IMG/VR virus record: IMGVR_UViG_3300020474_000013
Span: 1-59,986 of that record
Direction: 5' to 3' (one strand)
DNA length: 59,986 nt
DNA from: a virus
Each line of letters opens with the position of its first letter. Position 1 is the stretch's first letter. Positions 1-59,986 of this stretch are shown here, one piece after another. A model generated the notes under the pieces. It had not been told where the DNA came from. It searched no databases and was given only the letters and a program-made list of their open reading frames with translations. The position numbers and the translations under genes are program-made.

Positions 1-77
1 ACGCTTCTATGATAAGCAATAGCATCTACTGGATTAGTAAATACTACTAATCCTGGAGTTTCTATTTCTGTATCTGG
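1..77. repeat. Left copy of 77-bp exact terminal overlap
   Basis: Bases 1-77 are identical to 59910-59986. An exact overlap of this length is what an assembler leaves when it closes a circle, and 77 is a common final k-mer. A giant reading frame runs in phase across the junction, which supports real continuity. I read the genome as circular or circularly permuted, about 59,909 bp, and not as having a biological 77-bp terminal repeat. Confidence 0.93.
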
Positions 78-3000
78 ATTATAAAAAAATTGTGAATCAT
101 CAACAGCAAAACCTTCTTTTAAAATTCTATTAGCATCTTCTTTTTTAGCAACATAATAATATTGTTCATCCCACTTTCTTTTACTATCTCTTCTACCTCT
201 ACTAAATAAAGGTAAATCTAAACCAGGAACTGCATCTATAAAACCTAATTCTTTTAAGTTTTGATATTCAGGTAAAAGATTGTCGTAATATTGTTCTCTT
301 TGATTTCTAGGTACACTTTGTATTTGTTTTATTGAAGATATAGCTGATGCTAAATTATCTGCTTTTAGTTTTGCTCTTGCTTCTAAACCATCTGGTAAAG
401 TAGCTATTGCTAAAGCATTGTCCATGTTTGCATCATCTATAATAGATGTTTCTTCTTTTATTTTTATTCTTCCAACATTTCTTCTAAATTGTGGTAATAA
501 ACTTGTAATACCTAAATCTTTTAAACTTTTAGCAGAATATATTTCTTCTTGTGTTCTTAATTTTTTTGAAGAAGGTTCAAACATAATAATAACAGGTGCA
601 TCAATAGCTCCATCTTTTTGTCCTAAAGCTAATCTGTGTCTGCCTTCATGTCCAATAATTCTACCTGAATCATCAATAGACAAATAAGGATATGCACCTA
701 CATACCTCATCATTCTTCTAGGCTGTCTATTAAATACTTCAGGTTTAAAAGAAACATTAATTTGTTGACCATCTACTACTTCTGCATCAGTATCAACTAA
801 ATCTCCTAAAGGGTCAGTTGCTAAAATACCTCTATTAGGACCTAATGTTCCAAATATATCATCACGACTTTGTAATCTAACTGCATCTTTAATGCTTTCT
901 ATATTTTCTGTACTGTCTGTAGTAGCTATTAAAAAATCTTCTATAGGCATCCTTGTAACAAAAGGTATAATTGGTTGTTCATCAGTTCTTGTTTCATTTC
1001 TTGCCCAATCTTTTGTATATTCTAAATTTTCTCTAGTTAAATCTAAATACGCAGGTGAATCTTTAATAGCTGCTCTACTAAATGTAGGTAAATCTCCAGC
1101 TCTTAACTCAGCTATTTTATTCTTTTGATTTTGTATTTCTTTTTTTAATCTATTAGCAGTAGATACTGCCATCTTTTCGCTATTTAATTGTGCTTCTTTA
1201 AACTCTATACCTGCTTCTAAATTAGATATTGTTCTTTTTCTTTTTTCATTAGCAAAGTAGGCATCATCTGATTCTCTACTAAAAGTAGGTATATCTGTAT
1301 CTTCTCCAAAATACGCTCTGTCAATAAATTCTTTTGCTTCTTTTAAAGAATTTGTACTATCTTGATAAAATCCAGTTTGCAATGTTGCATCTTTTGCAGA
1401 CATACCTTCTTCTAATTTACCAAATGACCATTCTCTATTAGGTAAACCATAATTTGTTCCTACATCTTCAATAGCAAAACCTCTATATTCATAAAGACCA
1501 GGTGCTACTTTTTTAGCTGTTTTAGATTTATATGCTCTACTAAAGGTAGGTATATCCTCTACAGCTTTTATTCTTGGGAAATAACCCCATCGTGCCCAAC
1601 CACCATTACCATCCCAGCGAACATCTGCTGCTCTTAATTTAAAAGTATGTACCTTTGATGGAGTTCTATCAAGAAAAGGTCCTCCAATATCAAAAGCTTT
1701 GTCCATTTGGTTATATAGTTTTTCTTGTTGTAAATCTACTGCACCTGTTTTATCTATTTGTTCTTGCCTTCTTCTAGCTCTATCTGCTTCTCTCATTTCT
1801 TCTCTTGTAACTTTAGAATCTTCTACAAGAGCATTAGCTTCACTTAAAAACGGAGTTATTAAATCTCCTTCTCTTAAATCTCTTTGTGGTGCAGCTTGAT
1901 ACATAGTTATTTCTGCATTTGGATTGCCTTTTATTTCCATAAGTTTATTTATAAACTCACGCTCTTCTTGTATTTCTTGTTGTGTTCTAGCTGTGCTATA
2001 TACTTCAAATTCTTTTCTAGCTTCTTGTATTTCTTTAGTAGTTGATTCTGTAGTTGGAGTTTTAGGATATCTAAAACCATAACTTTGTGGATAATAACCA
2101 TCTTTTGTTTTTTCATCACTAACTATAATATCTAGTTGATGTGCAGGTGGACCATACTGTGCAGGTACATAATCAGCTAAATGACCAGATGTTTCATCTC
2201 TCGGTCCTCTAGCAAATGTAGGTGTATCTACGGGTGTTCTTGTATCTCCTAGTCTAGTAGTTCTTACAACACCTCTTTCTCTTCTACCAATTTTGCCTGA
2301 CTCAATATCATTAAATATTTCTGTAGCACTTTTATATCCTGAGCTACGCATAGCTTGACCCATAGATTTAAAGAACTCAACAATCTTATTAAAGATACCT
2401 TCTACTTTAGGAGGATTATTAACCAGTAAATTTCTATTTCTAAATAACTCAGCTATAGCTTCTTCGGTATAAAATTCTTCTGCAAAAGTCTCAGTAACAA
2501 ATCTATCTTCTAATGTTTTTTTATTTATTCTTACAGCTCTTGTATAAAAAGTTTCATTTGTTTTAGGAAATTTAGTTTTCTTTACAACATTTGTTAAATA
2601 TTTATATTCTTTATCTGTAATTAAATCTTTTTTACGAAGAGCATGAATCATCTCATGGTCTAATACTTTATTAAGTCTTTCTTGTATTTCTACATCAGTA
2701 GCACTACCATCAGGATTTACTGCATTAAGAGATAAGAAAATAGTATCTGTATTTTTATCATATTCTCCTTCTACAGCACCTTCTGTTTCTGTTGCTCTTA
2801 CTTTACTTGGGTCAAATTTTATTTTGCCATCAACATCTACTAATGTTGTAGTAGAAAGTATGTCATCACTTATAACAATGCCAGTTTCTTTGAGACCTCT
2901 AGCATCCATTGTTTTTCTTATTTCTTGTGCAAATTTACTAGTCTTACCTTGTTCTAAACTTTCTGCATAATTAATAGTTTTAGGTATTACTTCTGCAGGT

Positions 3001-5075
3001 GGTAGTAATCTTTCTTGTTTTACTGTTTCTTGTTGTACTAATTCTGCAATAGATTCTGGAGGTAACTTACCTTCTGCAGTAAGTCTTGCACCAAACTCTT
3101 CTGGTGTTTCATTAAAACCTTCTGCTCTTCTAGCTATATCAAACTCAAAGTTATCTCTAATCTTATAGTTATTAGTACCTTCTATTTTTTCTGCTCTATT
3201 GCTATAAATTAAATCATTAAGAAATTGTTCATTTTTACCTATTTGTTTTAAAGATTGTTTATTAAAAGTCATATTATTGCTTTTCATTTCAGCAACAAAA
3301 TCTGCCATATCTTGTGCAGAATAATCTCTTGGTCTAAAGTCTGGGAAAGTTGTTCTTGAATTGAACTTAGGAAGTGAATGAATTTTAGCCAAAAATAATT
3401 CTTTTTGACCTGTATTCATTTTTTTAAACTCAGGTGTACCTGTATATTTTTCTGCTGCATATTGAACAGCAGGTGATTTAGTATCTAAGTCTATATTTTT
3501 TGATGCAGCTATTTCTTTAATATATGAAATAGTTGTATTAGGTTTTTGTTTATCAGCAACAATAGAAGGTTCGCCTTTTTTTTCAGATGCTCTAAATACT
3601 GTTTGTGCGTAATTAGATGCAAATTCATTAAACTGTTTAGGCGTTAATAATTGTTTAACATTTGTCATAGGTTTTCTAGGATAACTACGAGAAGTTTTGC
3701 CTGGATTTTGTGCAACAAAACTATTTACTAAACCTCTAAGTATTACTTCTTGTTTAGAATCTTTAGGCACACTATTTATTAACTGGTGTATTCTTACATC
3801 AGAAGCTTTACTATCAGATATACTTAAACCAATATCATAAGCAGTAGAACTATTAACCAGTCCTAGATTATAAATATCATTATCTAATTTAGATTTTAAC
3901 TTTTTAACATCAAAATCTTTTGTTATTTTTTCTCTAACAGCAATAGCTTCAGCTTCTGTATTTTTTAAATCTATTTGATTTGGAGTTTCAGGATTTGATA
4001 TATCAACAACAGCAAATTGTTCTTGTGGTGTCATAACAACTTCTATTTCTGGTTCTGCTGCTAATTCTGCTGGCGTATCTACTTCTGGAACTGTAACCAA
4101 AGGTATGTCTTGTACTTCTTCAAGAGTTCCTTGTTCTATTGCAAGTTCTGATTTTTTTTGATTTAGTATTTTATTTTTAGTTTCTTCTGCTCTTAAATCA
4201 TCTTCTTGGGCATACTTTTGTGCAACAGATTTTTTACCTGCCATACTAGATACAACTAAATCAGCAGCACCACCAATAATACCGCCAATAGTAAACTCTT
4301 CAAACATACTATCTGCTATAGGTAAGTCCTCACTATAAAGACCTCTAGCTGTTAAATCTTGTAATATACTTGCAGCTACTTCTTGTCCACCCTCAGCAGC
4401 TCCTGATTGTAATGCTGATACTAATTTTTCTTTAGTAGATAATGGTGCGTTTTTGTGAACTTTGCCTAATATATTAGCAATAGGTAATACTTCAGTTATA
4501 CCTATAAGACCACCAAATAATTCAGCAGTAGTCTCAGTTAGACCACTTACATCTTCACCCATATCTCTAGCCATCTGTAGTCTATCGCCTTGTGCTGCTA
4601 TACCTGTTGGTATTGCTAAAGCTGTTGGTGCTGTAAATGTTGGTGATAGTATGCCCTTAGCTGCTCCTGGTGCTTTAGCTAGTGCTCTACCTACCATACC
4701 TGCACCTAAGAATGGTCCGAATGAACCTATGCCTTCTCCTAGTTTTGTAGAAAACTTATCAGCATATGCAGGGTCTCCTGCTAATATAGAATCTTCTCTT
4801 AGTCTATCTTGTAGTCCTTCAAGACCTTTATATAAGTTACTGTCGTTGCCAATATCAAATAAACCAACAATACCTGTAGGCACATCTAAAGCTAATCCAG
4901 CAGCACCTCTTGGTATTGATTTTATAAATTCGCCTACTTGTCCTAATGCAGATGTTTGGTCTAAATCTTCACCATATCTTTCTTTAACAGCAGCAACAAA
5001 TTGAGCTCTTTCATTTGGGTCTGATGGAATAATAAACTTATCTCCGCTTCCATCTGGTGCTTTATATATTGCCAT
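1..5075 (-). CDS. Giant polyvalent protein, N-terminal about 1,691 residues (continues across circle junction)
   Basis: This frame is open from ATG at 5075 to base 1 and continues in phase at 59909 down to a stop at 56417, giving about 2,855 residues. It starts 6 bp after the preceding gene. Residues about 40-300 are Gly/Ala-rich and amphipathic. A zincin motif HEMIH is at 807-811, with a downstream EEAIAEL segment that could supply the third zinc ligand. Residues about 1055-1170 look like the ADP-ribosyltransferase of phage polyvalent proteins (MYQAAP, GDLITP, WGYFP). GHEGRHR at 1475-1481 resembles a ParB-like/LPD motif. A second ART-like segment starts near 1630. P-T/L-F-S/A-R linkers with Phe at 954, 1178, 1265, 1332 and 1624 separate these parts. 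Such proteins are thought to enter the host with the DNA. Injection and the exact activities are inference. Confidence 0.85.
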   Translation of the reverse strand, partial: MAIYKAPDGSGDKFIIPSDPNERAQFVAAVKERYGEDLDQTSALGQVGEFIKSIPRGAAGLALDVPTGIVGLFDIGNDSNLYKGLEGLQDRLREDSILAGDPAYADKFSTKLGEGIGSFGPFLGAGMVGRALAKAPGAAKGILSPTFTAPTALAIPTGIAAQGDRLQMARDMGEDVSGLTETTAELFGGLIGITEVLPIANILGKVHKNAPLSTKEKLVSALQSGAAEGGQEVAASILQDLTARGLYSEDLPIADSMFEEFTIGGIIGGAADLVVSSMAGKKSVAQKYAQEDDLRAEETKNKILNQKKSELAIEQGTLEEVQDIPLVTVPEVDTPAELAAEPEIEVVMTPQEQFAVVDISNPETPNQIDLKNTEAEAIAVREKITKDFDVKKLKSKLDNDIYNLGLVNSSTAYDIGLSISDSKASDVRIHQLINSVPKDSKQEVILRGLVNSFVAQNPGKTSRSYPRKPMTNVKQLLTPKQFNEFASNYAQTVFRASEKKGEPSIVADKQKPNTTISYIKEIAASKNIDLDTKSPAVQYAAEKYTGTPEFKKMNTGQKELFLAKIHSLPKFNSRTTFPDFRPRDYSAQDMADFVAEMKSNNMTFNKQSLKQIGKNEQFLNDLIYSNRAEKIEGTNNYKIRDNFEFDIARRAEGFNETPEEFGARLTAEGKLPPESIAELVQQETVKQERLLPPAEVIPKTINYAESLEQGKTSKFAQEIRKTMDARGLKETGIVISDDILSTTTLVDVDGKIKFDPSKVRATETEGAVEGEYDKNTDTIFLSLNAVNPDGSATDVEIQERLNKVLDHEMIHALRKKDLITDKEYKYLTNVVKKTKFPKTNETFYTRAVRINKKTLEDRFVTETFAEEFYTEEAIAELFRNRNLLVNNPPKVEGIFNKIVEFFKSMGQAMRSSGYKSATEIFNDIESGKIGRRERGVVRTTRLGDTRTPVDTPTFARGPRDETSGHLADYVPAQYGPPAHQLDIIVSDEKTKDGYYPQSYGFRYPKTPTTESTTKEIQEARKEFEVYSTARTQQEIQEEREFINKLMEIKGNPNAEITMYQAAPQRDLREGDLITPFLSEANALVEDSKVTREEMREADRARRRQEQIDKTGAVDLQQEKLYNQMDKAFDIGGPFLDRTPSKVHTFKLRAADVRWDGNGGWARWGYFPRIKAVEDIPTFSRAYKSKTAKKVAPGLYEYRGFAIEDVGTNYGLPNREWSFGKLEEGMSAKDATLQTGFYQDSTNSLKEAKEFIDRAYFGEDTDIPTFSRESDDAYFANEKRKRTISNLEAGIEFKEAQLNSEKMAVSTANRLKKEIQNQKNKIAELRAGDLPTFSRAAIKDSPAYLDLTRENLEYTKDWARNETRTDEQPIIPFVTRMPIEDFLIATTDSTENIESIKDAVRLQSRDDIFGTLGPNRGILATDPLGDLVDTDAEVVDGQQINVSFKPEVFNRQPRRMMRYVGAYPYLSIDDSGRIIGHEGRHRLALGQKDGAIDAPVIIMFEPSSKKLRTQEEIYSAKSLKDLGITSLLPQFRRNVGRIKIKEETSIIDDANMDNALAIATLPDGLEARAKLKADNLASAISSIKQIQSVPRNQREQYYDNLLPEYQNLKELGFIDAVPGLDLPLFSRGRRDSKRKWDEQYYYVAKKEDANRILKEGFAVDDSQFFYNPDTEIETPGLVVFTNPVDAIAYHRS

Positions 5076-14785: not shown

Positions 14786-16542
14786 GTATACACCTGTAAC
14801 TTTTCTTTTTTACCTTTAGCTTCTATTGGTTCTAAAGGTATTAAATCAAATTCTAATGCATTTTGTGTGCTTTCGCCAATTAGTAAGTTTACACCAGCTT
14901 GTTTTGTACCTGACTCTAATCTAGCTGCAATATTTACTGCATCACCTATTGCTGTGTAATCAAACCTTGTTTCACTACCCATATTACCAATAACTGCATA
15001 ACCTGTATTAATACCTATGCCAATTTGAACTGCAGCAATTCCTTTGTTAATAAGAACATAGTTAAGTTCTATCATATTTTTTTGTATATCCATTGCACAT
15101 AATAATGCTTTTTCTTCATGTTTTTCTAAATCTAATGGTGCATTAAATATAGCCATCATTGCATCGCCAATATATTTATCTACCATACCGCCATGTTTTT
15201 GAACTGCATTAACTTGTGCTGTAAGTGCTTTATTCATAATATATGTAACATCTTCAGGTTCTAATGTTTCTGATAGTGCAGTAAAACCACGAACATCTGT
15301 AAATAAAAATGTGCAGTATCTTCTTTCACCACCTAATACTAATGAATCTGGATTATCTTGTAATTTTTTAACTTGCCTTGGGTCAAGATAATGTTCAAAT
15401 TGTTTTTTAATTTGTTGTCTTAATTTGTATTGTTCTCTAAATCTTAAATAAAAACCTATTGATGCTGTTATAAACTGTGAAATTAATGTCCAACTTACAT
15501 CTATTAGTATTCCACGCTGTATTAAATAGTGTCCGATAAATATTGTTAAAAAGAATAATAGACTGGTAAATGTTATTCCTAGCGTCATTCCAAAAATATT
15601 TACACATAACCAGACAAAAGTTACTGTTATCACTAAAATTAATAGTTCAACAGCTAAATGCCAATCAGGTATATAAGGACTATCTTGTATAAGTATTGAT
15701 TCTGCTAGTGCTGCTTGTATTTTATGTGGTTCTAATAAACCAACAGGAGTTGCAACTTGTGGCATTACTCCATTAGCCGTAACTCCAATAAATACAAATT
15801 TACCATTTACATCCATTTCTTTTAAATTAGTTTGTTCTGTATCTATCCAACTAATCCATTTGCGACCAAGGCTATCTGTTTTAACTGGTGGTATTCCTCT
15901 GATTGATATTTCTTCTATACCATTATCATTAGTTTTTATAATGTAAGTTTTTACACCAAACAAAGCTTTATATATTTGTGTACCAAAACTAGGAATCCAA
16001 TTATTATTAGGTGTTTTTACTAAAAGAGGTATTCTTCTTACAAGTTGGTCAACTTCGGTGGGAGCAATAGCTAAACCAGATAGCGTATTATTTGCTAAAA
16101 GAGGATGGTTTTGTTTCACTCCCAAAGATACTATACCACCATTATCTTCACCTTTCACTACAGTTCCTGTTGGCTTAGGATAATTACCTTTACCATCTTC
16201 AAACATAGCTATAACAGAAGGTGCATATCCTAAAGACCTTCCAAAATCTTCATCTCCACCCATTCTGTCTGCTTGTGGAAAAGATATAACCCAACCAACT
16301 CCTAAAGCACCTTTACCAATAATTTCCATTTGTATATCAGCTAATCTTTTTCTAGGTAATGGATAGCCACCTTCACGCTCTACATCTTCTTCTGTTATGT
16401 TTAATATAACAAAATTACCTGATGGTTCTGGTGTTTTTATAAATGAATCAAATACTTTTAGTTTTAATATTTCTGTAGGTGTTGACTGATATATTAATGG
16501 CAGTAAAAGTATTGTAAGTATCGGTAATATTAATTTTTTCAT
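14776..16542 (-). CDS. Membrane-bound class III adenylate cyclase with CHASE2 sensor
   Basis: The 588-residue architecture is complete: N-terminal membrane helix (3-20), extracytoplasmic CHASE2 domain (about 25-290), three membrane helices (about 294-314, 318-338, 350-366), a short linker and a class III cyclase domain (about 405-588). Visible catalytic residues are metal-binding D416 and D460, purine-specifying K456 (VDKYIGD) and T530 (Lys plus Thr/Asp is the adenylate cyclase pattern), and transition-state N537 and R541 (AVNIAARLES). Nothing essential is missing, so it should be an active enzyme making cAMP in response to a periplasmic signal. It overlaps the FecR-domain gene by one base (TAATG) and sits between curli and lysis genes. 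Cyclases of this type are common in bacteria but I do not know of them as routine phage genes. Confidence 0.9.
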   Translation of the reverse strand: MKKLILPILTILLLPLIYQSTPTEILKLKVFDSFIKTPEPSGNFVILNITEEDVEREGGYPLPRKRLADIQMEIIGKGALGVGWVISFPQADRMGGDEDFGRSLGYAPSVIAMFEDGKGNYPKPTGTVVKGEDNGGIVSLGVKQNHPLLANNTLSGLAIAPTEVDQLVRRIPLLVKTPNNNWIPSFGTQIYKALFGVKTYIIKTNDNGIEEISIRGIPPVKTDSLGRKWISWIDTEQTNLKEMDVNGKFVFIGVTANGVMPQVATPVGLLEPHKIQAALAESILIQDSPYIPDWHLAVELLILVITVTFVWLCVNIFGMTLGITFTSLLFFLTIFIGHYLIQRGILIDVSWTLISQFITASIGFYLRFREQYKLRQQIKKQFEHYLDPRQVKKLQDNPDSLVLGGERRYCTFLFTDVRGFTALSETLEPEDVTYIMNKALTAQVNAVQKHGGMVDKYIGDAMMAIFNAPLDLEKHEEKALLCAMDIQKNMIELNYVLINKGIAAVQIGIGINTGYAVIGNMGSETRFDYTAIGDAVNIAARLESGTKQAGVNLLIGESTQNALEFDLIPLEPIEAKGKKEKLQVYTWN

Positions 16543-17660
16543 TAATCACTTTGAGTTATTGTTATTGTAGAATCACTACCACCATTAACTTTTATTATGT
16601 TAGAAATGCCATCTTGTATAAATATTACTGTGTAAGCATTATTTCCATCTAAATCTAACTGTACGCTTTCGCTAACACTTCTTCTTAAACTAACAACTTG
16701 TCCTGTAATTATAGTTGTTATTTGTGTATCTGGGTCTTTACCTAATAATGTTCCTGATATTTGTGTGCTTGTAGCTTGTGCTAATTGTTCTTCTTCTTCA
16801 GCTATAGCTAATCCATCTAAAACATTTAATAAATCTTCTAAGTAATTTACATCAAGATAATTTATGTCTAGTTCTGTAAATTGTAAGTTATCTTCCTTTA
16901 AATAATCCTCTGCAAGATAATCTATATCTAAATCATTAAAATCAAGTACGCTATCTGTTTGTGTGCTTGTAGTTTCTTCTTGTATTACTACCTCTTCTTT
17001 AGGAGGCGTAACAATTAACATATTGTCTATTACATCTAATGTTAAATCTAATATAACTGGTTTGCTTGGTGCTGATTCAAATACACTTACTGTAGTTGCT
17101 TCGTAAGGTTTGTTAAGTAAAACTGTTCCCATAGCAGTAACTACTTCTATTTCGCCACTAGAGAGCCCTAGAGAGTCTGGTAGCAGTATTATAAGGCTAC
17201 GACCTAATTCATCTACTGTAGCCGTAAAATCAGTACCACGAATAGCTATATTAGCTGTAGGTGTTTTAAGAGATATGTTTTGTTTATCTATACGATTTAA
17301 ATTGCCTGTAATAAATCTTGCTGTACCAATACCAAAGGTAAGAGCCATTTTTGCTTTGCTTGGGTCAGGGTCATAAATGTACTCATCTATTAATAGTTGT
17401 GAGTGTTCAGTAAGCTTTACAATAGAATCATCAAGAAATGTAATAGCCATTCTTCCATTAGTAGTAATAGCTTCATCATTACTTTGTATAGAAAATTTTA
17501 ATTCGGCATCTAATGGTTTATCTCTTACTATTTGTGCTGAACCATTTAGTTCAGATATATCTCCAATATTAACAGCTTGTGCTTGTACCTTGGTCGTTTT
17601 GGATAACGCAAACAGTAGAAGCAGCATTGCCACCGATTGATATAATTTTAAGCCAGTCAT
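16542..17660 (-). CDS. Secreted FecR-domain protein
   Basis: The protein has 372 residues with a signal peptide (about 1-28, ending in VQAQA). Residues about 55-160 form a FecR domain, recognisable by the hallmark TANIAIRGTDF. In bacteria FecR-domain proteins are periplasmic and often lie beside CHASE2-cyclase genes. Residues about 235-285 hold an acidic Tyr/Leu-rich repeat of the type DYLxEDYL, and the C-terminus is beta-rich. It overlaps the curlin-like gene by 92 bases and the cyclase by one. I infer that it senses something in the periplasm and acts with the CHASE2 domain; no partner has been shown. Confidence 0.8.
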   Translation of the reverse strand: MTGLKLYQSVAMLLLLFALSKTTKVQAQAVNIGDISELNGSAQIVRDKPLDAELKFSIQSNDEAITTNGRMAITFLDDSIVKLTEHSQLLIDEYIYDPDPSKAKMALTFGIGTARFITGNLNRIDKQNISLKTPTANIAIRGTDFTATVDELGRSLIILLPDSLGLSSGEIEVVTAMGTVLLNKPYEATTVSVFESAPSKPVILDLTLDVIDNMLIVTPPKEEVVIQEETTSTQTDSVLDFNDLDIDYLAEDYLKEDNLQFTELDINYLDVNYLEDLLNVLDGLAIAEEEEQLAQATSTQISGTLLGKDPDTQITTIITGQVVSLRRSVSESVQLDLDGNNAYTVIFIQDGISNIIKVNGGSDSTITITQSD

Positions 17661-18300
17661 TATCTTGGGTACTCAGTTGTTGTATGTTAAAAGTTCTTTG
17701 ACCGCCTGTATGGTCTAGCCAAAAATATCCACCTGCTGAAGCATTAACACCAGTACCTGTATAATTTACTGTATTATCAGAACCATCTATATCCATATAG
17801 TTTGTAGCACCATCAATATTTATATTTGATGTTACTGTGTTGCTAGAACCTTGAATAATCCAATCTAAATTTAAATTTGCTGCTATTGCTGTAGTACCTT
17901 GATTTAAGGTAAATGTATTACTACTACCTGTAACTGCTATATTTTGGTCAGAACCTGCAGAACTATATGTATTAGTTGGGTCTACTTGTATCGTAAAAGT
18001 ATTTGTATCTCCAGTAAAATTATATAGCCCTGTAAAAGTAGTAGCGTTTATATCACCTAAAAATTTATTGGTATTACCAATCATATTAATATCAAGTGTC
18101 ATAGTAGCACCATCTAAATCAAAAGCATTTAAAGACCCCGCAGTAGAATTTAAACCACCAATAATATTAGATATACCTAGTTGTTCTAGGTCTATATTTG
18201 CACCAGTACCTGACTGGTCTACATAAATTTCGTTATCAGCCGCGTAAATTGTTGATGCACTCAGCATCACAATCAGGCTCATTAATTTCAATTTCTTCAT
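17569..18300 (-). CDS. Secreted curlin-like repeat protein
   Basis: The protein has 243 residues with a signal peptide ending at about IYAA. The mature start (IYVDQSGTGANIDLEQLGISN) has the Q-x-G-x-x-N spacing of CsgA/CsgB repeats. Later turns repeat G-S/D-x-N-T-F/V-T every 20-30 residues, as expected for a stacked beta solenoid. Two cysteines lie near the end. The ATG at 18300 is preferred over 18330 because the signal peptide begins there and GGAG precedes it. It overlaps CsgG by 65 bases and FecR by 92. It is probably the substrate of the CsgF/CsgG system, but it lacks the regular five-repeat layout of true CsgA. Confidence 0.7.
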   Translation of the reverse strand: MKKLKLMSLIVMLSASTIYAADNEIYVDQSGTGANIDLEQLGISNIIGGLNSTAGSLNAFDLDGATMTLDINMIGNTNKFLGDINATTFTGLYNFTGDTNTFTIQVDPTNTYSSAGSDQNIAVTGSSNTFTLNQGTTAIAANLNLDWIIQGSSNTVTSNINIDGATNYMDIDGSDNTVNYTGTGVNASAGGYFWLDHTGGQRTFNIQQLSTQDNDWLKIISIGGNAASTVCVIQNDQGTSTSC

Positions 18301-39239: not shown

Positions 39240-40736
39240 CTAGTAATAATCTGCTGTTCTGTTATGTTCTATTGGTTCATCTTCTTCATCTGAATCAAGA
39301 GGAACAAAACCACCTTGCCTAAATCTTAATAATGCTTGCGTACTGCTATCAACCAAATCATCATGTTCCATATTAGGAAAACCAGCAAACTCTTCTATAA
39401 CTTCTTCTGCCCATCTTGTTTCAGGTGCCCAAACAACTCCTGAAGCAAACAAATCTGACACAGCATTTACTCTTGATATTTTATCATTACCACGACTAGG
39501 TGTATATTCTTGTACTGGTATGCCTGTTTGTCTAAGTTCAAATATTAAAGGTAGCCCTGCAGCCTTAGCTTCTACAATAAAAGCATCAGGTTTATAGGCA
39601 TTGTACTTCTCTAAAGCCATTTTCTTTAAATCTGGGAACTCTAAACGCTCTTTGTAGGCATCTAGTAGTATTAGTTGTGGAGCAACAAGACCATCATCGT
39701 TTTCTTTATAAAAAACACCCCAACTGGTACAGGCTGAATAGTCAGCTCTTTGTGTTTTTAAGAAAGCCGTGTCCCATGATTGGATAATAAACTCACAATC
39801 AGGAGGATTTCTACCTTCCCATGTTCTCCACCATTCTCTTTTAACAAGAGCACCTTCTTCAGAAGTAGGGTCTTGTTGATATTGAGCCATCCACTTAGAA
39901 CTAGGCAATTCAGCCTTCAAAGCTTCTAACTCTTCCAATTTCCAGAAAGCATCCCACAAAGGTTTACCAGAAGGTAAGATTGCAGGTAGTTCAATTACTT
40001 CCCATTGGTCGGCTCCGCCACGCTTTATACTAGCATCTACCACTTGACCCGTTAAATCCTTGTTATGCCATCTTGTCATCACTACAACGATTGCACCATT
40101 AGGCTGTAAACGCTGTCTAGGACCAGATGTGTACCATTCATAGGTACGATTAAAGACATTTATGTCTGCTGAAGCTCCTTCTTGCTCAGAGTGCGGGTCA
40201 TCTATGATGAGTAGGTCAGCACCTTTACCAGTAACTGCTCCTCCTACACCAATAGCGAAATATTCACCGCCTTTATTCGTATTCCAACGACCCGCAGCTT
40301 TGGAATCCGACTGCAAACTAACATTGGGGAATATTTTCTTAAAATCTTTGCTTCCTACAAGGTTTCTAACCTTCCTACCAAAGCCTACAGCTAGTTCTGC
40401 GGTGTGTGCGGTCTGAATAATCTTTTTTTCTGGCTTACTTCCCAGGAACCATGCAGGTAATAGGAAAGATGCAAACTCGGATTTGGTATGTCTAGGTGGC
40501 ATATTGATAATTAGACGCTTTAAATCGCCATTAGCTACCCTTTCAAAGGCATCCGCCATAATTTTATGATGGGGACCCTCTATAAATGCAGTCCACATCT
40601 CCTTAACAAAGGACATATACTCTTCTGCACACTTCTCTCGGGCTTTAGCATCTTCTAATTCATCTAATAAACCTAGTAACTCTCTCTTCTCATCCAAAGA
40701 AAGGTTTTGTACTTGACTTAATATTTGGTTACTCAT
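39240..40736 (-). CDS. terL: Terminase large subunit
   Basis: The protein has 498 residues. The ATPase part has a Walker A-like MPPRHTKSE (79-87), Walker B LLIIDDPH (D179/D180) and VVVMTRWH. The nuclease part has acidic residues D322 (QSWDTAF), E389 (FIVEAKAAG) and D459/D460/D463 (EHDDLVDSS), an RNase H fold cleaving concatemers. It is complete. A 526-bp gap with G-run repeats separates it from the small subunit, unusual because terminase genes normally touch. Confidence 0.95.
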   Translation of the reverse strand: MSNQILSQVQNLSLDEKRELLGLLDELEDAKAREKCAEEYMSFVKEMWTAFIEGPHHKIMADAFERVANGDLKRLIINMPPRHTKSEFASFLLPAWFLGSKPEKKIIQTAHTAELAVGFGRKVRNLVGSKDFKKIFPNVSLQSDSKAAGRWNTNKGGEYFAIGVGGAVTGKGADLLIIDDPHSEQEGASADINVFNRTYEWYTSGPRQRLQPNGAIVVVMTRWHNKDLTGQVVDASIKRGGADQWEVIELPAILPSGKPLWDAFWKLEELEALKAELPSSKWMAQYQQDPTSEEGALVKREWWRTWEGRNPPDCEFIIQSWDTAFLKTQRADYSACTSWGVFYKENDDGLVAPQLILLDAYKERLEFPDLKKMALEKYNAYKPDAFIVEAKAAGLPLIFELRQTGIPVQEYTPSRGNDKISRVNAVSDLFASGVVWAPETRWAEEVIEEFAGFPNMEHDDLVDSSTQALLRFRQGGFVPLDSDEEDEPIEHNRTADYY

Positions 40737-40922
40737 ACATCTCCTATACTAGATAGTAAGTAGACACTTCCTAAAACTAAAAACTTACTAAGTTACTACC
40801 AGTTAGTGGCACTTAGCAAGTAAATACCTTACAAGTAGGTACCTACTGGATGTAAATCACGCTAGATTTTAACATAATTGCACATCTTCACAGGAAAAAC
40901 AACTATTTTTTAAAAATAATAT

Positions 40923-41100
40923 GGGGGGTCTAGGGTCCCTTAGCCGTTTCCTACAGAAATTATATATTAAACTTACAAAAAACGCTATCAAAATGCAATA
41001 CATAGGGGGGGTCTATGAAAACAACTAATATCCTGTGCATATCACTATGTATATATGATAGTCAGGTAGCCGACTGTGTAAAAGGGGGGAGGGGGGTCTA
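40923..41100. repeat. Three GGGGGGTCTA repeats with about 84-bp phasing
   Basis: Exact copies of GGGGGGTCTA start at 40923, 41006 and 41091, 83 and 85 bp apart, which is eight helical turns. The middle copy sits in the inverted repeat CATAG...CTATG and the third follows an additional GGGGGGA. The run lies directly behind the small terminase gene, so a pac-type recognition site is a reasonable guess. Phased G-runs could also form quadruplexes. Confidence 0.7.
40964..40991 (-). promoter_or_regulatory. Sigma-70-like promoter upstream of terL
   Basis: On the minus strand TTGATA (40986-40991), 16 bases and TAATAT (40964-40969) form a promoter-like pair about 220 bases before the terL start codon. 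It would drive the long late operon. The long leader is unexplained. The hexamer match is moderate. Confidence 0.4.
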
Positions 41101-41120
41101 TTTATAGTGGGAAATCTAAA

Positions 41121-41169
41121 CACAATATGTTGTGGTCAAAGATGATACCTGGAACACAAGATGTTGTGT
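41121..41169. promoter_or_regulatory. Two related inverted repeats (operator-like)
   Basis: CACAATATGTTGTG (41121-41134) and ACACAAGATGTTGTGT (41154-41169) are perfect dyads with the same half-site ACACAA/TTGTGT around a 4-base centre, 34 bp apart centre to centre. This pairing is typical of a dimeric regulator or of small-terminase binding. They lie 94 bp behind the small terminase gene. Confidence 0.6.
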
Positions 41170-41262: not shown

Positions 41263-41742
41263 CTATTGTTTGTTAAGTAATGCTTCTATTCGCTCTTCAA
41301 TATCCGCTTCAACTTCATCGCTTGTTCTTGCTTCTTTGGTTTCAACAACATCACTAAACAGCGATACACTTTTACCTAGCAATTCCAATGCTCGAATCCT
41401 AGCTGAATCTGAATCTGATTCTTTGGACTCACGATACAGTTGGTCTATGACATAGTTTCTTGTTCTGAGACTACTAGCAACTGCTGACTGCTCTTTACGT
41501 TCAATAGCCCTTTGTATGCTTATTGCTATCTTAGGGTTTGCAACTAAACGACTTGCTTCTACTTCTACCCACTTGGGAATCTTCCCTTGCTTAGTTAGAG
41601 CGACATCATAAACCTTTGCATATGCTTCTTTATAACTACCCAACTTGCCCTTGATAATTTCATCCACGAACTGCCTTTGCTTTATCGTTAATTCAATTTC
41701 TTTTTTGACTACTTTCAGATTTGGTTTTTCATCTTCGCTCAT
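41263..41742 (-). CDS. terS: Terminase small subunit
   Basis: The protein has 159 residues. The N-terminal helix-turn-helix region (LTIKQRQFVDEIIKGKLGSYKEAYAKVY) followed by NPKIAISIQRAIERKEQ is the Terminase_2-type DNA-binding pattern, and the acidic C-terminal coil (TSDEVEADIEERIEALL) would oligomerise the ring. It selects the phage DNA and regulates the large subunit. It reads towards the terL gene but is separated from it by the G-run gap. Confidence 0.8.
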   Translation of the reverse strand: MSEDEKPNLKVVKKEIELTIKQRQFVDEIIKGKLGSYKEAYAKVYDVALTKQGKIPKWVEVEASRLVANPKIAISIQRAIERKEQSAVASSLRTRNYVIDQLYRESKESDSDSARIRALELLGKSVSLFSDVVETKEARTSDEVEADIEERIEALLNKQ

Positions 41743-44506: not shown

Positions 44507-45865
44507 ATGTTAAATAGTGAAGAGCGAATAATTAAAGCTAGAGCGAAACTTATGAAAGGTAATATTGGTATGGCTACCATGCTACTAAAACTTACTTTGA
44601 TTGAGGATAATGAGCGATGCCAAACTATGGCTACAGACGGAATTAATATTTATTGGAATGATGAATTTGTTAAATCAATATCAGATGAAGAAATCCAAAC
44701 AGTATTAATTCACGAAGCAAGTCATGTCATATGGGAACATCCAATTAGAAAAGGTAAACGAATTCACGAACTTTGGAACATAGCTACTGACTATGTAATT
44801 AACTCTTGGATAGCATACGATTTAGGTATGCAACTTCCCGAGGGTGGACTACTTGATAGGCAGTATCATAGACAAAGTGCAGAACAAGTTTATAGAACTT
44901 TATCTAATGATGATGAAGCCCTAGATGATGCCCTTGAACAATTAGAATCTAATTCAGATGATGATGATGATTCTGATTCTCAAAATGGCGGTGGCGATTC
45001 TGATTCAGATTCTGATGCAGATGCAGATGATTCTGATTCTCAAAGTGGCGATTCAGATGCTACTGGAAATGGACAAGGTAAATCTCTTGAAGAGAAACTT
45101 GCTGATGTCAAATTACCAAGTGGCGAAGTTTGGATGCCAACTAATGAAAATGGACAAGAACTATCGCCTACTGAAATGGCTGAACTACAAGAGGAACTTC
45201 AAAGAACAATATCAATGGCTGATAAGCTAGATACTATTGGAGAAAACCCTACTGGTGGTTTTGGTAAAGCTATGGAACAACTAAACGAAAGTTATGTTGA
45301 CTGGGTAGATGTAATGCGAGATTTATTGCAAAGCGTTTACTCTGATAATCCTACTTGGACAAGATTAAATAAAAGACATTCTTGGAGGGGGGTTAATTTA
45401 CCTAGCAGAGACAAAGAGCCACAAGGCGGAGAACTCGTAGTTGCTATTGATACAAGCGGAAGTGTTTCACAAGAAGAACTAAATGTTTTTGCAACTGAAA
45501 TCAATTCCCTAGCGGAAGAGTGTGGTATCAATAAAATTAGAGTTTGTTATTGTGATACTACTGTCCACAAAAACTCAAAAGGCGAATGGTGGGATGAATA
45601 CGACTTGGATTGTGAAGAGTTGGAACTTGTCTCTCGTGGCGGTGGCGGAACTTATTTTGACCCGCCTTTCAACTTGTACAACGACTACACAGAAGATACA
45701 GATGAAGTAGTAGCATTTATCTACTTTACAGATGGGTATGGCGAGTGTAGTGCAGAAGTTGAGCCCGATGTTCCAGTAATATGGGCATTGAGTGGTGGCG
45801 AAAATAGGTGGAGCAATGAACTTCCTTTTGGGGAAAAAGTTGCTATAGATTTCTCTAGTCTTTAA
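44507..45865 (+). CDS. DUF2201-like metallopeptidase and VWA-domain protein
   Basis: The protein has 452 residues. Residues about 1-130 are the putative metallopeptidase domain with HEASH (69-73, the HExxH pattern). A Ser/Asp-rich linker follows (150-190, largely DSDSD runs). The C-terminal VWA-like domain has the metal-ion-dependent adhesion motif DTSGS (315-319) and YFTDGYGE. CobT-like and DUF2201 proteins of this build are the partner of MoxR/CobS ATPases. Here the ATPase is two genes upstream. Its substrate is not known. Starts at ATG 44507 behind CTTGGAGGAATT. Confidence 0.82.
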   Translation: MLNSEERIIKARAKLMKGNIGMATMLLKLTLIEDNERCQTMATDGINIYWNDEFVKSISDEEIQTVLIHEASHVIWEHPIRKGKRIHELWNIATDYVINSWIAYDLGMQLPEGGLLDRQYHRQSAEQVYRTLSNDDEALDDALEQLESNSDDDDDSDSQNGGGDSDSDSDADADDSDSQSGDSDATGNGQGKSLEEKLADVKLPSGEVWMPTNENGQELSPTEMAELQEELQRTISMADKLDTIGENPTGGFGKAMEQLNESYVDWVDVMRDLLQSVYSDNPTWTRLNKRHSWRGVNLPSRDKEPQGGELVVAIDTSGSVSQEELNVFATEINSLAEECGINKIRVCYCDTTVHKNSKGEWWDEYDLDCEELELVSRGGGGTYFDPPFNLYNDYTEDTDEVVAFIYFTDGYGECSAEVEPDVPVIWALSGGENRWSNELPFGEKVAIDFSSL

Positions 45866-56098: not shown

Positions 56099-56479
56099 AT
56101 GCTAAAAGATATACTACAAGAAAAATTAGATAAACGAAAAAGGAAATGGTGGGAGTGGCACAAAAAGAATCCACAAGTTTGGGATAAGTTTGAATCTTAT
56201 ACCTTAGAAGCTATCAATAGTGGTAGGAAAAAGTATTCGCATTGGGCGATAATCAATCGTATTCGTTGGCACAATGAGATAGAAACTAGAGGTGGGGACT
56301 TTAAGATAAGCAATGATTACATCTGTTTCTATGCCCGTTTATTCCATGCTAGACATCCACAATACAAAGACTTCTTTACATTGAAACCATTGAAAGAAGA
56401 AAAGGATATGGCTATGTTAGAGGTTAAGACTGAAAATAGGAATGTTAGCTTTCTTCCTCAGTTGAGGAACCATAGCTAG
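56099..56479 (+). CDS. Unknown early protein
   Basis: The protein has 126 residues. It is strongly basic at the start (KLDKRKRKWWEWHKKNPQVWDKFESY) and has a helical middle (HWAIINRIRWHNEIETRGGD, FYARLFHARHPQYKDFF). Similar proteins are frequent near RusA in marine phages. The last 63 bases overlap the 3' end of the giant polyvalent gene on the other strand. Function unknown. Confidence 0.6.
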   Translation: MLKDILQEKLDKRKRKWWEWHKKNPQVWDKFESYTLEAINSGRKKYSHWAIINRIRWHNEIETRGGDFKISNDYICFYARLFHARHPQYKDFFTLKPLKEEKDMAMLEVKTENRNVSFLPQLRNHS

Positions 56480-59400
56480 TCGCATATCTCTTTCTAGTTC
56501 TAAGTCTCTTATCATATCTGACTTGACTGTTATAGATAGATTTTCATCTTGATAGATTCTATCTCTACGCTTTCTCCAGTTATCTAAGTATCTTTCTATT
56601 GACCTTACTTGTCCTTTGACATTCAACACACCCTGCATATTGCTTCTGTAAGCTGATAGTTCATCAAATCTTCTTTGTTTTTGTAGAGAGTTGATAGTTG
56701 CTACTGCCCTGTCAACCTCTCCTCTTAACTCATAAAACTGTTGCTGATAACCACCCGACTTATCTAAATCAAGTAATAGTCTATTAAAGACTGGCATTTT
56801 ACTTAGTTGATAGTTGGAAGGTATTAGAGGACTTCCTGTAGCTCCTCTAGTGATAGTATCTACAGCACTTAATACATATCCACCAAGTGTTCCTGTATAA
56901 CCTCTCATAACGTGCTCTATCTTTGCAGGAGATATATTAAGAGCTTCACCCATTACTCTTGCAAACTCATTGGTAGTTGGTCTTGATTGTAATCCAGGTT
57001 CTTTCTTTTGTTGATAGTAGGGTACTATTTCTGTATCAGTAAAAGTATTTCTATTATTTATTACTTCTGATATTGGTTTTAATAATTGTATTCCACCACC
57101 AGGTTGAAAGAATGGTATGTTAAAAGAAGTTTGAGCCTGTCTACCAATAGATGTCATAGCTTCATCAACAGACTTTCTTGTAAAAGCATCATCTCCCATA
57201 GTCATATCAAATACTCTTTCTGGTATAGCTTTAAATAACATACCTACTTCAAATGGAATAGGTATCTTAACTGCATTGCCATTGCCTATAGGCATGACCC
57301 AGTTATCATCTCTTACTTCTCGTTTAAGATTTTTGTATTCATCTGTATCACTTACCATCATGTAGTAAAGTGCCGTTAGACCTACAAGTAATCCTGCATT
57401 AAAGAATGTTCTTCTAAATATTCTTGATTGCACATCTTTTAGTGATTCTCCAATCTGTTGTTTTTCTACAGCAGAATATTGACCAGTTAATCCTCTATGT
57501 AATACATCAAGACCTTGTATTCTTGCATTTAAAAATGGTATTGCAGCAGTAATAATTCTAAATAATGAATCAGAACCACGCCTTCCAAAGTTAATTATTT
57601 CTTGTGCTTGATAAGCCGCTTCTGATTGTGCAACTGCTTCTGATAAGCCTTGTTCTTTTAACATTTTATAAACACCATCATAGACTGCTTTACGAGTTGC
57701 ACCATCTGATTTAGTGGTAAGTGCTCCAAGACCATCCCATAGCTTAAAGAAAGCACCTGTAGGAGACATACCATTATTTGGTGTGAGTCCTTGTTGTCGC
57801 ATAGTTCTAGTAATAAATTGTTTTACACTACCCTCATCAACAGAATAATCATAGCCACCAAGAACACCAAACTGTTCTAGTTCTTCCATGCTACCAAACA
57901 TATTTTTAACTGAATCAATGATAGGCGTATATGGTGCACCGCTTGTTACAGCAGAAGATAAGGTATCTCTTAAAATATTTATAACAACAAAGCCTGGGTC
58001 TCTTGTAACTGTATCTCTAAGCAGCCCTGCTGGTACTGCTAAAAATTTTCCTATGGCACCTGGAGCTACTCCTCCAACATTTTGTAAACTATAGACCAGT
58101 CTAGGGTCATCTACCTGATAGTGTTGCTTGTTACCATCTTCAAAGAAGAATAAGCTATCAGCTTTACCTGCGTCTTTTGCAGATATTTTTTGAGCTAATC
58201 CCATTGTTTCTAAATCTCTAACTATTTTACTCATAGAATCATTTTTTAATGCTGCTGTAAGAATAGATAATGAGTTTCTTGATATAGCTTCTATTGGGTC
58301 TGCATCAATAATTTCTTCTGAACCTTTTATTTGTATATCTAATGGATTTCCTGGTAGTGAACCACCTGCAATTTTAGGTCCTTTAATCCCACTATCATCA
58401 ACCATTTGCCTATAGAAAGGATAATAAACAGAATGTTCTCTCCATAATGCAGATTGTTCTGCACTTAAAATACCTTTACTTTCTGCAAGTTTAATTAAAG
58501 CATTATTCCAATTTTGATAATTATTATAGACTTCTAATATTTCAGGGTGCTGTTGTTCTATTTGTTGTATAAGAACATAATCTTTAGGTTTAACTGGTGT
58601 ATCTATTTCTCTACCACTTTCATCAAGATTTTTTGCTCTTTTTAACATAGCATAACTTTTAAAAGCAGCTTCTAAATTTAAGTTAGGATTAGAAAATAAT
58701 GGTGCAAGTATTTGTATAAGACCACCTGTTTTACCTGTAAGATTACCATTAGCATCAACAAGTTCTAAAGGTATTGTTTTTACTAAAGAACTAACTCCAT
58801 CTATTACATCAGTTGGTATTCCTCTTGTAAGCATACCTTGATATACACCTCTTGATTTATCAGACATTCTTAATGATTGTTCTGCACCTGAATCTGCAAA
58901 CATATTAACAAGTGTTACTTGTTCTGCTGCTGCTATAGCTTCTTCTTCTGTAAATTCTTTTTTAGTTTTAGGATTTATTCTGCCTATATAAAATTCTTTA
59001 GTTTTACCAGCTAATAATGTTTTAGTAAGGGTATCGTATTGGTCAATATATCTTTGTCTAAACTCTTTAAAGAAATTTTTAATAGATGTAATGGGGTCTT
59101 TAACAACTTCAATAAATCTAGCACCCATAGATTGGTCAGGCAATACTTCTCCACCTGTTCTAGTAATAAACTCTTTTAAGTTATCTTGTAGTCCATCAAG
59201 AGTAGGTCTTGAAAAATTAGGTATATCATCAGGTGCCTTAGCAGATAAGTCTTTATTAAAGTCTATAGCAATCTTTAAGGCTGTATCTGAGGCATTTAAA
59301 TTATAATAAGGTATTGAACCTCTAGGTGTTTGTTTAACTGTTTCTTCGGCTTCTTCTACTGCTTGTTTTAATTGTATATTTTTTTGTGTATTTGGTGGTG

Positions 59401-59986
59401 GATTTAATATATTAGCAATATCATTCATATATTTAGTAACAATATTTGCAAGTTCTTCTTTTGATGAAGCTAAACCTCTTGTTTCATTACCTATTGGTTT
59501 CATAGGCAATCCTTTACCCTCCATAACAGATTTAACTTGTTCTGGAGGTAATGGGTCTCCTATATCAGTCATCTCAGGACTAAAAAATCTTTGTGGAACT
59601 TCACCAGTTCTATCTATTGCTCTACCAAAATATGGATTAATTTTTGTTTGAGTAAGTTCTTCTAATGTAGCACTACCTAATATGTTATTAACATTTTTAA
59701 AATAATTTAAATTATTATCTACATCTAAATATACAGATTGTGTTACATCATTACTAAGCAATCCTTTTGTTTCTCTGCCAAACCCTGGTCTTAAAGAACC
59801 CAATCCAAAAGCATTTGGATTAGGTTGCCAATTTAAACCACCAATATCTCTATCAGTACCTTTTTTAACAGCTATTAAAACTAAATCAGATAGTTCTTCT
59901 CTCCAATCTACGCTTCTATGATAAGCAATAGCATCTACTGGATTAGTAAATACTACTAATCCTGGAGTTTCTATTTCTGTATCTGG
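56417..59986 (-). CDS. Giant polyvalent protein, C-terminal about 1,164 residues (continues to 1..5075)
   Basis: This is the remainder of the frame that starts at 5075. The frame is open to the window end and in phase through the 77-bp overlap, so the protein ends at 56417 after about 2,855 residues. The second ART-like segment ends near residue 1,720 (residues about 1,630-1,720, with YHRS and LSDLVLIAVKK). A sixth P-N-F-S-R motif (Phe at about 1,924) precedes the large helical C-terminal region, which resembles the domain I recall as LPD38 (SAEQSALWREHSVYYPFYRQM, ITAAIPFLNARIQGLDVLHRG). One membrane helix (about NAGLLVGLTALYYMMV) occurs near residue 2,490. The end overlaps the opposite-strand gene. 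Confidence 0.85.
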   Translation of the reverse strand, partial: PDTEIETPGLVVFTNPVDAIAYHRSVDWREELSDLVLIAVKKGTDRDIGGLNWQPNPNAFGLGSLRPGFGRETKGLLSNDVTQSVYLDVDNNLNYFKNVNNILGSATLEELTQTKINPYFGRAIDRTGEVPQRFFSPEMTDIGDPLPPEQVKSVMEGKGLPMKPIGNETRGLASSKEELANIVTKYMNDIANILNPPPNTQKNIQLKQAVEEAEETVKQTPRGSIPYYNLNASDTALKIAIDFNKDLSAKAPDDIPNFSRPTLDGLQDNLKEFITRTGGEVLPDQSMGARFIEVVKDPITSIKNFFKEFRQRYIDQYDTLTKTLLAGKTKEFYIGRINPKTKKEFTEEEAIAAAEQVTLVNMFADSGAEQSLRMSDKSRGVYQGMLTRGIPTDVIDGVSSLVKTIPLELVDANGNLTGKTGGLIQILAPLFSNPNLNLEAAFKSYAMLKRAKNLDESGREIDTPVKPKDYVLIQQIEQQHPEILEVYNNYQNWNNALIKLAESKGILSAEQSALWREHSVYYPFYRQMVDDSGIKGPKIAGGSLPGNPLDIQIKGSEEIIDADPIEAISRNSLSILTAALKNDSMSKIVRDLETMGLAQKISAKDAGKADSLFFFEDGNKQHYQVDDPRLVYSLQNVGGVAPGAIGKFLAVPAGLLRDTVTRDPGFVVINILRDTLSSAVTSGAPYTPIIDSVKNMFGSMEELEQFGVLGGYDYSVDEGSVKQFITRTMRQQGLTPNNGMSPTGAFFKLWDGLGALTTKSDGATRKAVYDGVYKMLKEQGLSEAVAQSEAAYQAQEIINFGRRGSDSLFRIITAAIPFLNARIQGLDVLHRGLTGQYSAVEKQQIGESLKDVQSRIFRRTFFNAGLLVGLTALYYMMVSDTDEYKNLKREVRDDNWVMPIGNGNAVKIPIPFEVGMLFKAIPERVFDMTMGDDAFTRKSVDEAMTSIGRQAQTSFNIPFFQPGGGIQLLKPISEVINNRNTFTDTEIVPYYQQKKEPGLQSRPTTNEFARVMGEALNISPAKIEHVMRGYTGTLGGYVLSAVDTITRGATGSPLIPSNYQLSKMPVFNRLLLDLDKSGGYQQQFYELRGEVDRAVATINSLQKQRRFDELSAYRSNMQGVLNVKGQVRSIERYLDNWRKRRDRIYQDENLSITVKSDMIRDLELERDMRLAMVPQLRKKANIPIFSLNL
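59910..59986. repeat. Right copy of 77-bp exact terminal overlap
   Basis: Identical to 1-77. See the left copy for reading. Counting the overlap once gives a circle of about 59,909 bp. Confidence 0.93.

Follow-up and report, generated by a model that had tools for sequence, protein, structure and literature searches.

The 59,986-nucleotide stretch of viral DNA analysed here (the window; IMG/VR record IMGVR_UViG_3300020474_000013) carries, directly behind its small terminase gene, an element built of G/C runs that is probably the site of packaging initiation, with a pac site like that of SPP1/SF6, associated with headful packaging, as the most likely type and a cos-like site as a less likely one. 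The initial annotation had described three copies of a G-run repeat here and had ascribed them to a packaging-initiation complex, with all three runs facing the same side of the helix, eight turns apart. A packaging site stands as the best reading of the element, given its conservation, its anchoring to terS and the SF6/SPP1-type TerS, whereas the phasing on one helical face is not supported. The three copies of GGGGGGTCTA belong to a larger element that is non-coding, conserved and situated between terS and terL, and they are the form that it takes in one strain. For this element, the conservation, the anatomy, the anchoring to terS, the constant polarity of a double run, the lack of RNA structure and the kinship of the TerS with that of SF6 were computed directly.

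Anatomy and conservation of the element

Both terminase genes lie on the minus strand, with terS, encoding the small terminase (159 aa; PHROG 51, E 3.6e-12), at 41263..41742 and terL, encoding the large terminase (498 aa; PHROG 38, E 2.5e-104), at 39240..40736. The 526 b gap between them holds all three copies of GGGGGGTCTA (40923-40932, 41006-41015 and 41091-41100), which are the only exact matches in the window and have start-to-start distances of 83 and 85 b. A fourth G6 at 41084-41089 is one base off the third copy, giving G6AG6, and the four G-runs lie on one strand within 174 b. Because the gap sits between minus-strand genes, these repeats are C-runs on the coding strand. Against 200 dinucleotide shuffles, in which GGGGGGTCTA was counted on both strands, the 3 copies observed compare with a mean of 0.045 and a maximum of 1, and the 4 runs of at least six bases per 180-b span compare with shuffles that never gave more than 2. 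The three copies at this spacing behind terS are thus confirmed as far beyond chance. The accompanying statement that the genome otherwise avoids G-runs is wrong, since G-runs elsewhere are about as frequent as expected: GGGGGG is also present at 45387, 47354 and 55995, and about 4 matches to G6 are expected from shuffles of the window as a whole.

Read on the strand that runs from terS to terL, the element is composed of a double C-run (C6-N-C6), a spacer of 25-31 b, the core ATATACATAGTnnnnnGCTCA, additional C-runs that differ between relatives in number and strand, a dyad and an A/T-rich tract. Positions along it are given as slots, numbered from ATACATAG with position 0 at window 41052. 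In the window, where all of these features are on the minus strand, the double run is C6-T-C6 (41084..41096; slots -44 and -37) and includes the third copy of GGGGGGTCTA. It is followed by the conserved core ATATATACATAGTGATATGCACA (41034..41056; slot 0; alignments A1 and A2) and then by a C7 run at slot +41 with the flanks CATAG/CTATG (41005..41011; the second copy of GGGGGGTCTA). Beyond this lie the conserved TATTGCATTTTGATAGC (40984..41000), which shows little or no variation in alignment A1 and is conserved in A2, the 9-bp dyad AGGGACCCT (40932..40940), the C6 run of slot +124 (40923..40928; the first copy of GGGGGGTCTA) and, after this last run, the A/T-rich tract (40905..40920).

The repeats were looked for in homologous genomes by comparing 80 loci seeded with terL and 80 seeded with terS, and the element proved to be strongly conserved in many homologous contigs. 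Among the 100 of 121 contigs with the full span, runs of at least five C occur at slots -82 (24), -44 (59), -37 (92), +41 (81), +86 (14) and +124 (83). Such runs have a density of 5.60/kb in the 700 b before terL versus 0.14/kb elsewhere in 77 close loci, three of the original 80 having been left out for an incomplete terL. For 60 distant loci, at 64-77% TerL identity, the density is 2.35/kb in the 900 b before terL versus 0.50/kb elsewhere, with 115 C-runs seen versus 26 expected from composition. These 60 were drawn from 80 loci; L170, L171 and 18 others were omitted as repeats of close-set contigs or as having little sequence before terL, and a few of the omissions (L172, L223, L225) were made without a strict criterion. 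The core evolves more slowly than the third codon positions of terL, with mean identities of 0.83 for the core, 0.75 for the +41 block, 0.72 for the double run and 0.53 for the terS-side flank versus 0.58 for terL third positions, calculated over the 41 loci that have a third-position identity below 0.75 and a full-length terL and core.

The dyad was counted in 114 of the 121 contigs and is perfect in 90 of them versus 8.1% of shuffles, an excess that is to be taken as support and not as proof because related sequences are not independent. It comes in several sequences, among them AGGGACCCT, AGGAATCCT, AGGGTCCCT, AGGATTCCT and ACACTGTGT. A further survey relied upon DNA only, with a pattern consisting of the double run, 15-40 b and TATACATAGT that was searched for in 2.9 million viral contigs and matched 119 stretches; neighbouring genes were surveyed in 80 of these, and runs and dyads in 76 of the 80. 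An AGGRNYCC dyad, which was not part of the search pattern, is found in 54 of the 76 loci versus 1.1% of shuffles. The conserved unit is the combination of double run, core and dyad, the first two having themselves formed the search pattern. The three-run array was rejected as the conserved unit, as the +41 run is present in only part of the family: the first run of at least five bases 15-75 b after the core is a C-run in 23 of the 76 loci and a G-run in 13, and is absent from 40. The element is common to many aquatic phages. No match to the array was found among 50,697 phage records, and the element is absent from the compared stretches of the isolates HTVC023P, HTVC027P and DSL-LC04.

With respect to helical phasing, the distances of 85 and 83 b in the window, measured with the TAGA edge as reference, are near eight turns. 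The TAGA flank varies among relatives, in which the run-end distances are 76-82 b (mode 79) and 78-85 b (mode 82), such that the spacing drifts by several bp. Moreover, the 85-b distance makes use of the -44 run, present in 59 of 100 contigs, whereas the most constant member of the double run is that at -37 (92 of 100). The spacing is constrained to a few bp, without one-face placement being demonstrated.

Anchoring to the small terminase gene

In 76 of the 80 matches listed from the DNA-only search, the pattern is preceded on its own strand by a TerS open reading frame, at a distance of 4-176 b from the end of that frame (median 73.5). The remaining four comprise three contigs that begin less than 175 b upstream and one locus (L309) where the TerS-matching open frame overlaps the pattern. 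The terL gene lies 178-3191 b downstream in 73 of the 80. The DNA signature alone thus locates terS in metagenomes. The loci in which terS and terL are separated are informative with regard to which gene the element follows: all nine loci with a TerS match and a terS-terL gap above 1.4 kb (1.5-2.7 kb) carry two or more G/C runs in the 300 b that follow terS, while none of these nine has two such runs in the 300 b before terL and only two have one. Where terS abuts terL (L231, L234), the array is found just 5' of terS. Exceptions are represented by L205, with the array about 0.5 kb 5' of terS, and L230, where about 1.1 kb and two genes separate it from terS; in L242 no TerS match accompanies the array, and L201 and L194 have shorter runs only. 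When 39 loci picked for their upstream sequence were tested, a significant C-run cluster upstream of terL was present in 19 of 30 TerS-positive loci and in one of nine TerS-negative loci. The element is anchored to terS and is not universal among TerS-positive loci. As a separate observation, a small gene is inserted between the array and terL in L213, L224, L244 and similar loci, where it is preceded by the palindrome GCGAACGTTCG or a close variant; the start of its product resembles a LexA DNA-binding domain.

The TerS encoded in the window is related to the small terminases of the SF6/SPP1 type (the SF6/G1P, Terminase_2 kind). Its DNA-binding domain of this type occupies residues 18-83, and profile searches matched the TerS of Pam5 (5.9e-8) and that of SF6 (3zqp; 5.5e-6). 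In an AlphaFold2 model (mean pLDDT 79.8), the N-terminal part forms three short helices, after which comes a long one. Alignment of the model with VIA-align returned 4zc3, the SF6 domain, with Z 7.9 and an rmsd of 1.9 over 57 residues, and 3zqq with Z 6.8, a match that is supportive only because Z is below 8; six of its top seven rows are named small terminases and the other is a phage protein. Foldseek alone gave no significant match for the TerS model, and Pfam Terminase_2 scored 24.5 bits on TerS, below the cut-off of 26.1.

Packaging and alternative roles

From these properties we infer binding by TerS, cutting, a packaging direction and a headful mode. A ring-forming TerS would bind both the double C-run and the other G/C runs, with the A/T-rich segment, being bendable, allowing the DNA to curve. 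TerL would then be recruited to cut concatemeric DNA inside the element, either at the core or at the dyad, and packaging would proceed towards terL and the portal gene. More tentatively, and with a lower probability, the TerS of this lineage may recognise homopolymeric G.C tracts by their shape, with the strand of individual tracts being exchangeable; pac would then be a placement of G/C runs around the ATACATAG core and not an ordinary repeat of a word, and the site may have switched between the 5' and 3' sides of terS in evolution whilst staying with terS.

One of the questions concerning such an element relates to whether it could instead control transcription, as a phage-specific late promoter, an operator or a Rho-dependent termination site that sets the expression of terL or the late operon. 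Ahead of terL, most of the runs read as C on the coding strand, C-rich RNA directly after a stop codon has the typical look of a Rho site, and TATATATA comes after the last run in some relatives. However, there is one site per genome, the 10-mer GGGGGGTCTA being found only here in the window; a general promoter repeat was discounted as there are no further copies in the window. The element also stays at terS in loci that have terL at a distance of 1.5-2.7 kb, and the alignment shows no conserved -35 for a sigma-70-like match at 41082-41055. The runs on the coding strand can, moreover, be G-runs or palindromes: the L016-like clade has G5-CTA-C5 in place of the double run and GGGGTACCCC at +41, and in L178, L181, L182 and L185 a G-run occupies the middle place, while the polarity of the double run is otherwise constant. 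These strand flips argue against either a C-specific RNA signal or a one-strand quadruplex, neither of which would tolerate them. RNAalifold found no conserved fold in 14 sequences (alignment A2; -0.81 kcal/mol) and Rfam gave nothing near the gathering score, which argues against a structured RNA element. Transcription control is thus an unlikely explanation by itself, but packaging and transcription roles may coexist, as the SPP1 pac overlaps promoters.

A replication origin, with the runs as iterons next to an A/T-rich tract, is less likely again. The iteron-like runs do adjoin such a tract and the cumulative GC-skew has its minimum near 42 kb, but the change in skew coincides with a change in gene strand at 42 kb, and the element tracks terS and not the primase-helicase gene at 49-51 kb.

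The alternative of a cos site with cohesive ends, in which the dyad or core would be the staggered cut and the C-runs the TerS-binding part, appears improbable. It would account for a 9-bp dyad with turnover of sequence ahead of the last run, and cos sites are also located at terS. Against it stand the ends of contigs. There is an enrichment of ends in the terS-terL gap, as 32 of the 60 left contig ends of the terL set fall no further than 750 b from terL, but they are spread with no single point, there is no cluster of contig ends at the dyad, and 10 of 42 are within 15 b of a run versus 9.1% by chance. As they are spread and partly at runs, these ends are read as assembly breaks, and their interpretation as genome ends was rejected. 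Furthermore, 13 contigs of 52-63 kb (the window and 12 hand-picked records from among the long contigs) have the element in their interior, and their ends are dispersed around the map relative to it, which fits circular or permuted maps. Passages of PMC9599517 describe 81 related genomes from viromes as circularised, with an overlap of 100 b required. Scattered ends and circularisation by overlap are as terminally redundant DNA allows, and pac is favoured over cos. Metagenome contigs break in the terS-terL gap more than around it, partly at C-runs, which may fragment such genomes in databases.

Finally, a plus-strand G-quadruplex or R-loop element, which the initial annotation had offered as its alternative, has in its favour the four G-runs on one strand and the resemblance of G6AG6 to human mitochondrial CSB II but is effectively ruled out by loops of about 73 and 76 nt and by the runs of opposite strand in relatives, both in the L016 clade (G5-CTA-C5 at the double run and GGGGTACCCC at +41) and in the 13 of 76 loci with a G-run where 23 have a C-run.

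Comparison with known packaging sites and genome context

In SPP1, as described in passages of PMC6316719, pacL and pacR, located at the terS gene, are the binding sites of TerS, and the cut by TerL falls between them. The SPP1 pac extends over the start of terS and includes direct repeats (passages of PMC6316719 and PMC4737164). The candidate site, as read from the DNA, is like the SPP1/SF6 pac (pacL-pacC-pacR, TerS gp1) in having repeats at terS, several boxes and a related TerS, and the terS-terL gene order would likewise follow the direction of packaging. It contains direct repeats, as does the SPP1 pac. It differs in that the SPP1/SF6 pac lies over the terS promoter, RBS and 5' coding end, whereas here the site is 3' of terS in the window and most members, with a 5' placement only in some relatives (L231, L234), and in that its repeats are homopolymeric C/G runs. 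A portion of PMC4737164 also reports that the isolated SF6 TerS DNA-binding domain has no clear sequence preference, and so the repeats need not be a recognition code. The family offers a natural series of variants for the question of how a ring-shaped TerS recognises DNA, be it by wrapping or threading, or by sequence or shape.

The lambda cos consists of the cosN dyad and the cosB repeats R1-R3. The present element resembles it in its putative TerS repeats and a short dyad near terS, but no cohesive ends were seen here and contigs run through the site. In HK97, the TerS-binding site of cos contains an A-tract (in a passage of PMC11331095). A short specific site at the terminase genes with an A-tract is a shared feature, although the HK97 site is a single one of 15 bp that begins 15 bp away from the cut and the element here is a spread of multiple runs.

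The TerL is 52-60% identical to those of the pelagiphages HTVC023P and HTVC027P, phage 023Pt_psg01 and phage DSL-LC04. The genome of 023Pt_psg01 (L164) has five copies of GGGCCCACCC-N-CCCC on one strand, all between terS and terL (15431-17846) with none elsewhere in its 59,769 b; unlike the element of the window, they are spread over 2.4 kb between several genes. In the 11.4 kb around its terL the ATACATAG core is represented only by two chance 8-mers, and its annotated TerS was not recovered by the TerS profile used here. The HTVC023P-type pelagiphages are described as widespread in parts of PMC9599517, and no packaging site for them was found in the portions of the literature searched. The element thus provides a testable candidate packaging site for a large uncultured group, for which that search gave no earlier candidate.

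The window also carries a CHASE2-cyclase and FecR pair, which resembles the curli module reported for HTVC023P-type pelagiphages (passages of PMC9599517). At positions 1-5075 and 56417-59986, minus-strand open frames with an LPD38 domain run off both ends, as if one giant gene spanned the contig ends, and the contig is probably a nearly complete circular map. Around 42000, a cumulative GC-skew minimum is accompanied by a switch in gene strand. Beside terS, AACACAA(T/G)ATGTTGTG occurs twice (41119-41134 and 41153-41168, 34 b apart), each copy being a small palindrome that is shared by close relatives only. Ahead of terL there is a second repeat array at 40737-40852, with imperfect GTAnnTACTTA/TAAGTAnnTAC units that are retained in relatives despite variable sequence between them, and which is possibly an operator or a second binding array.
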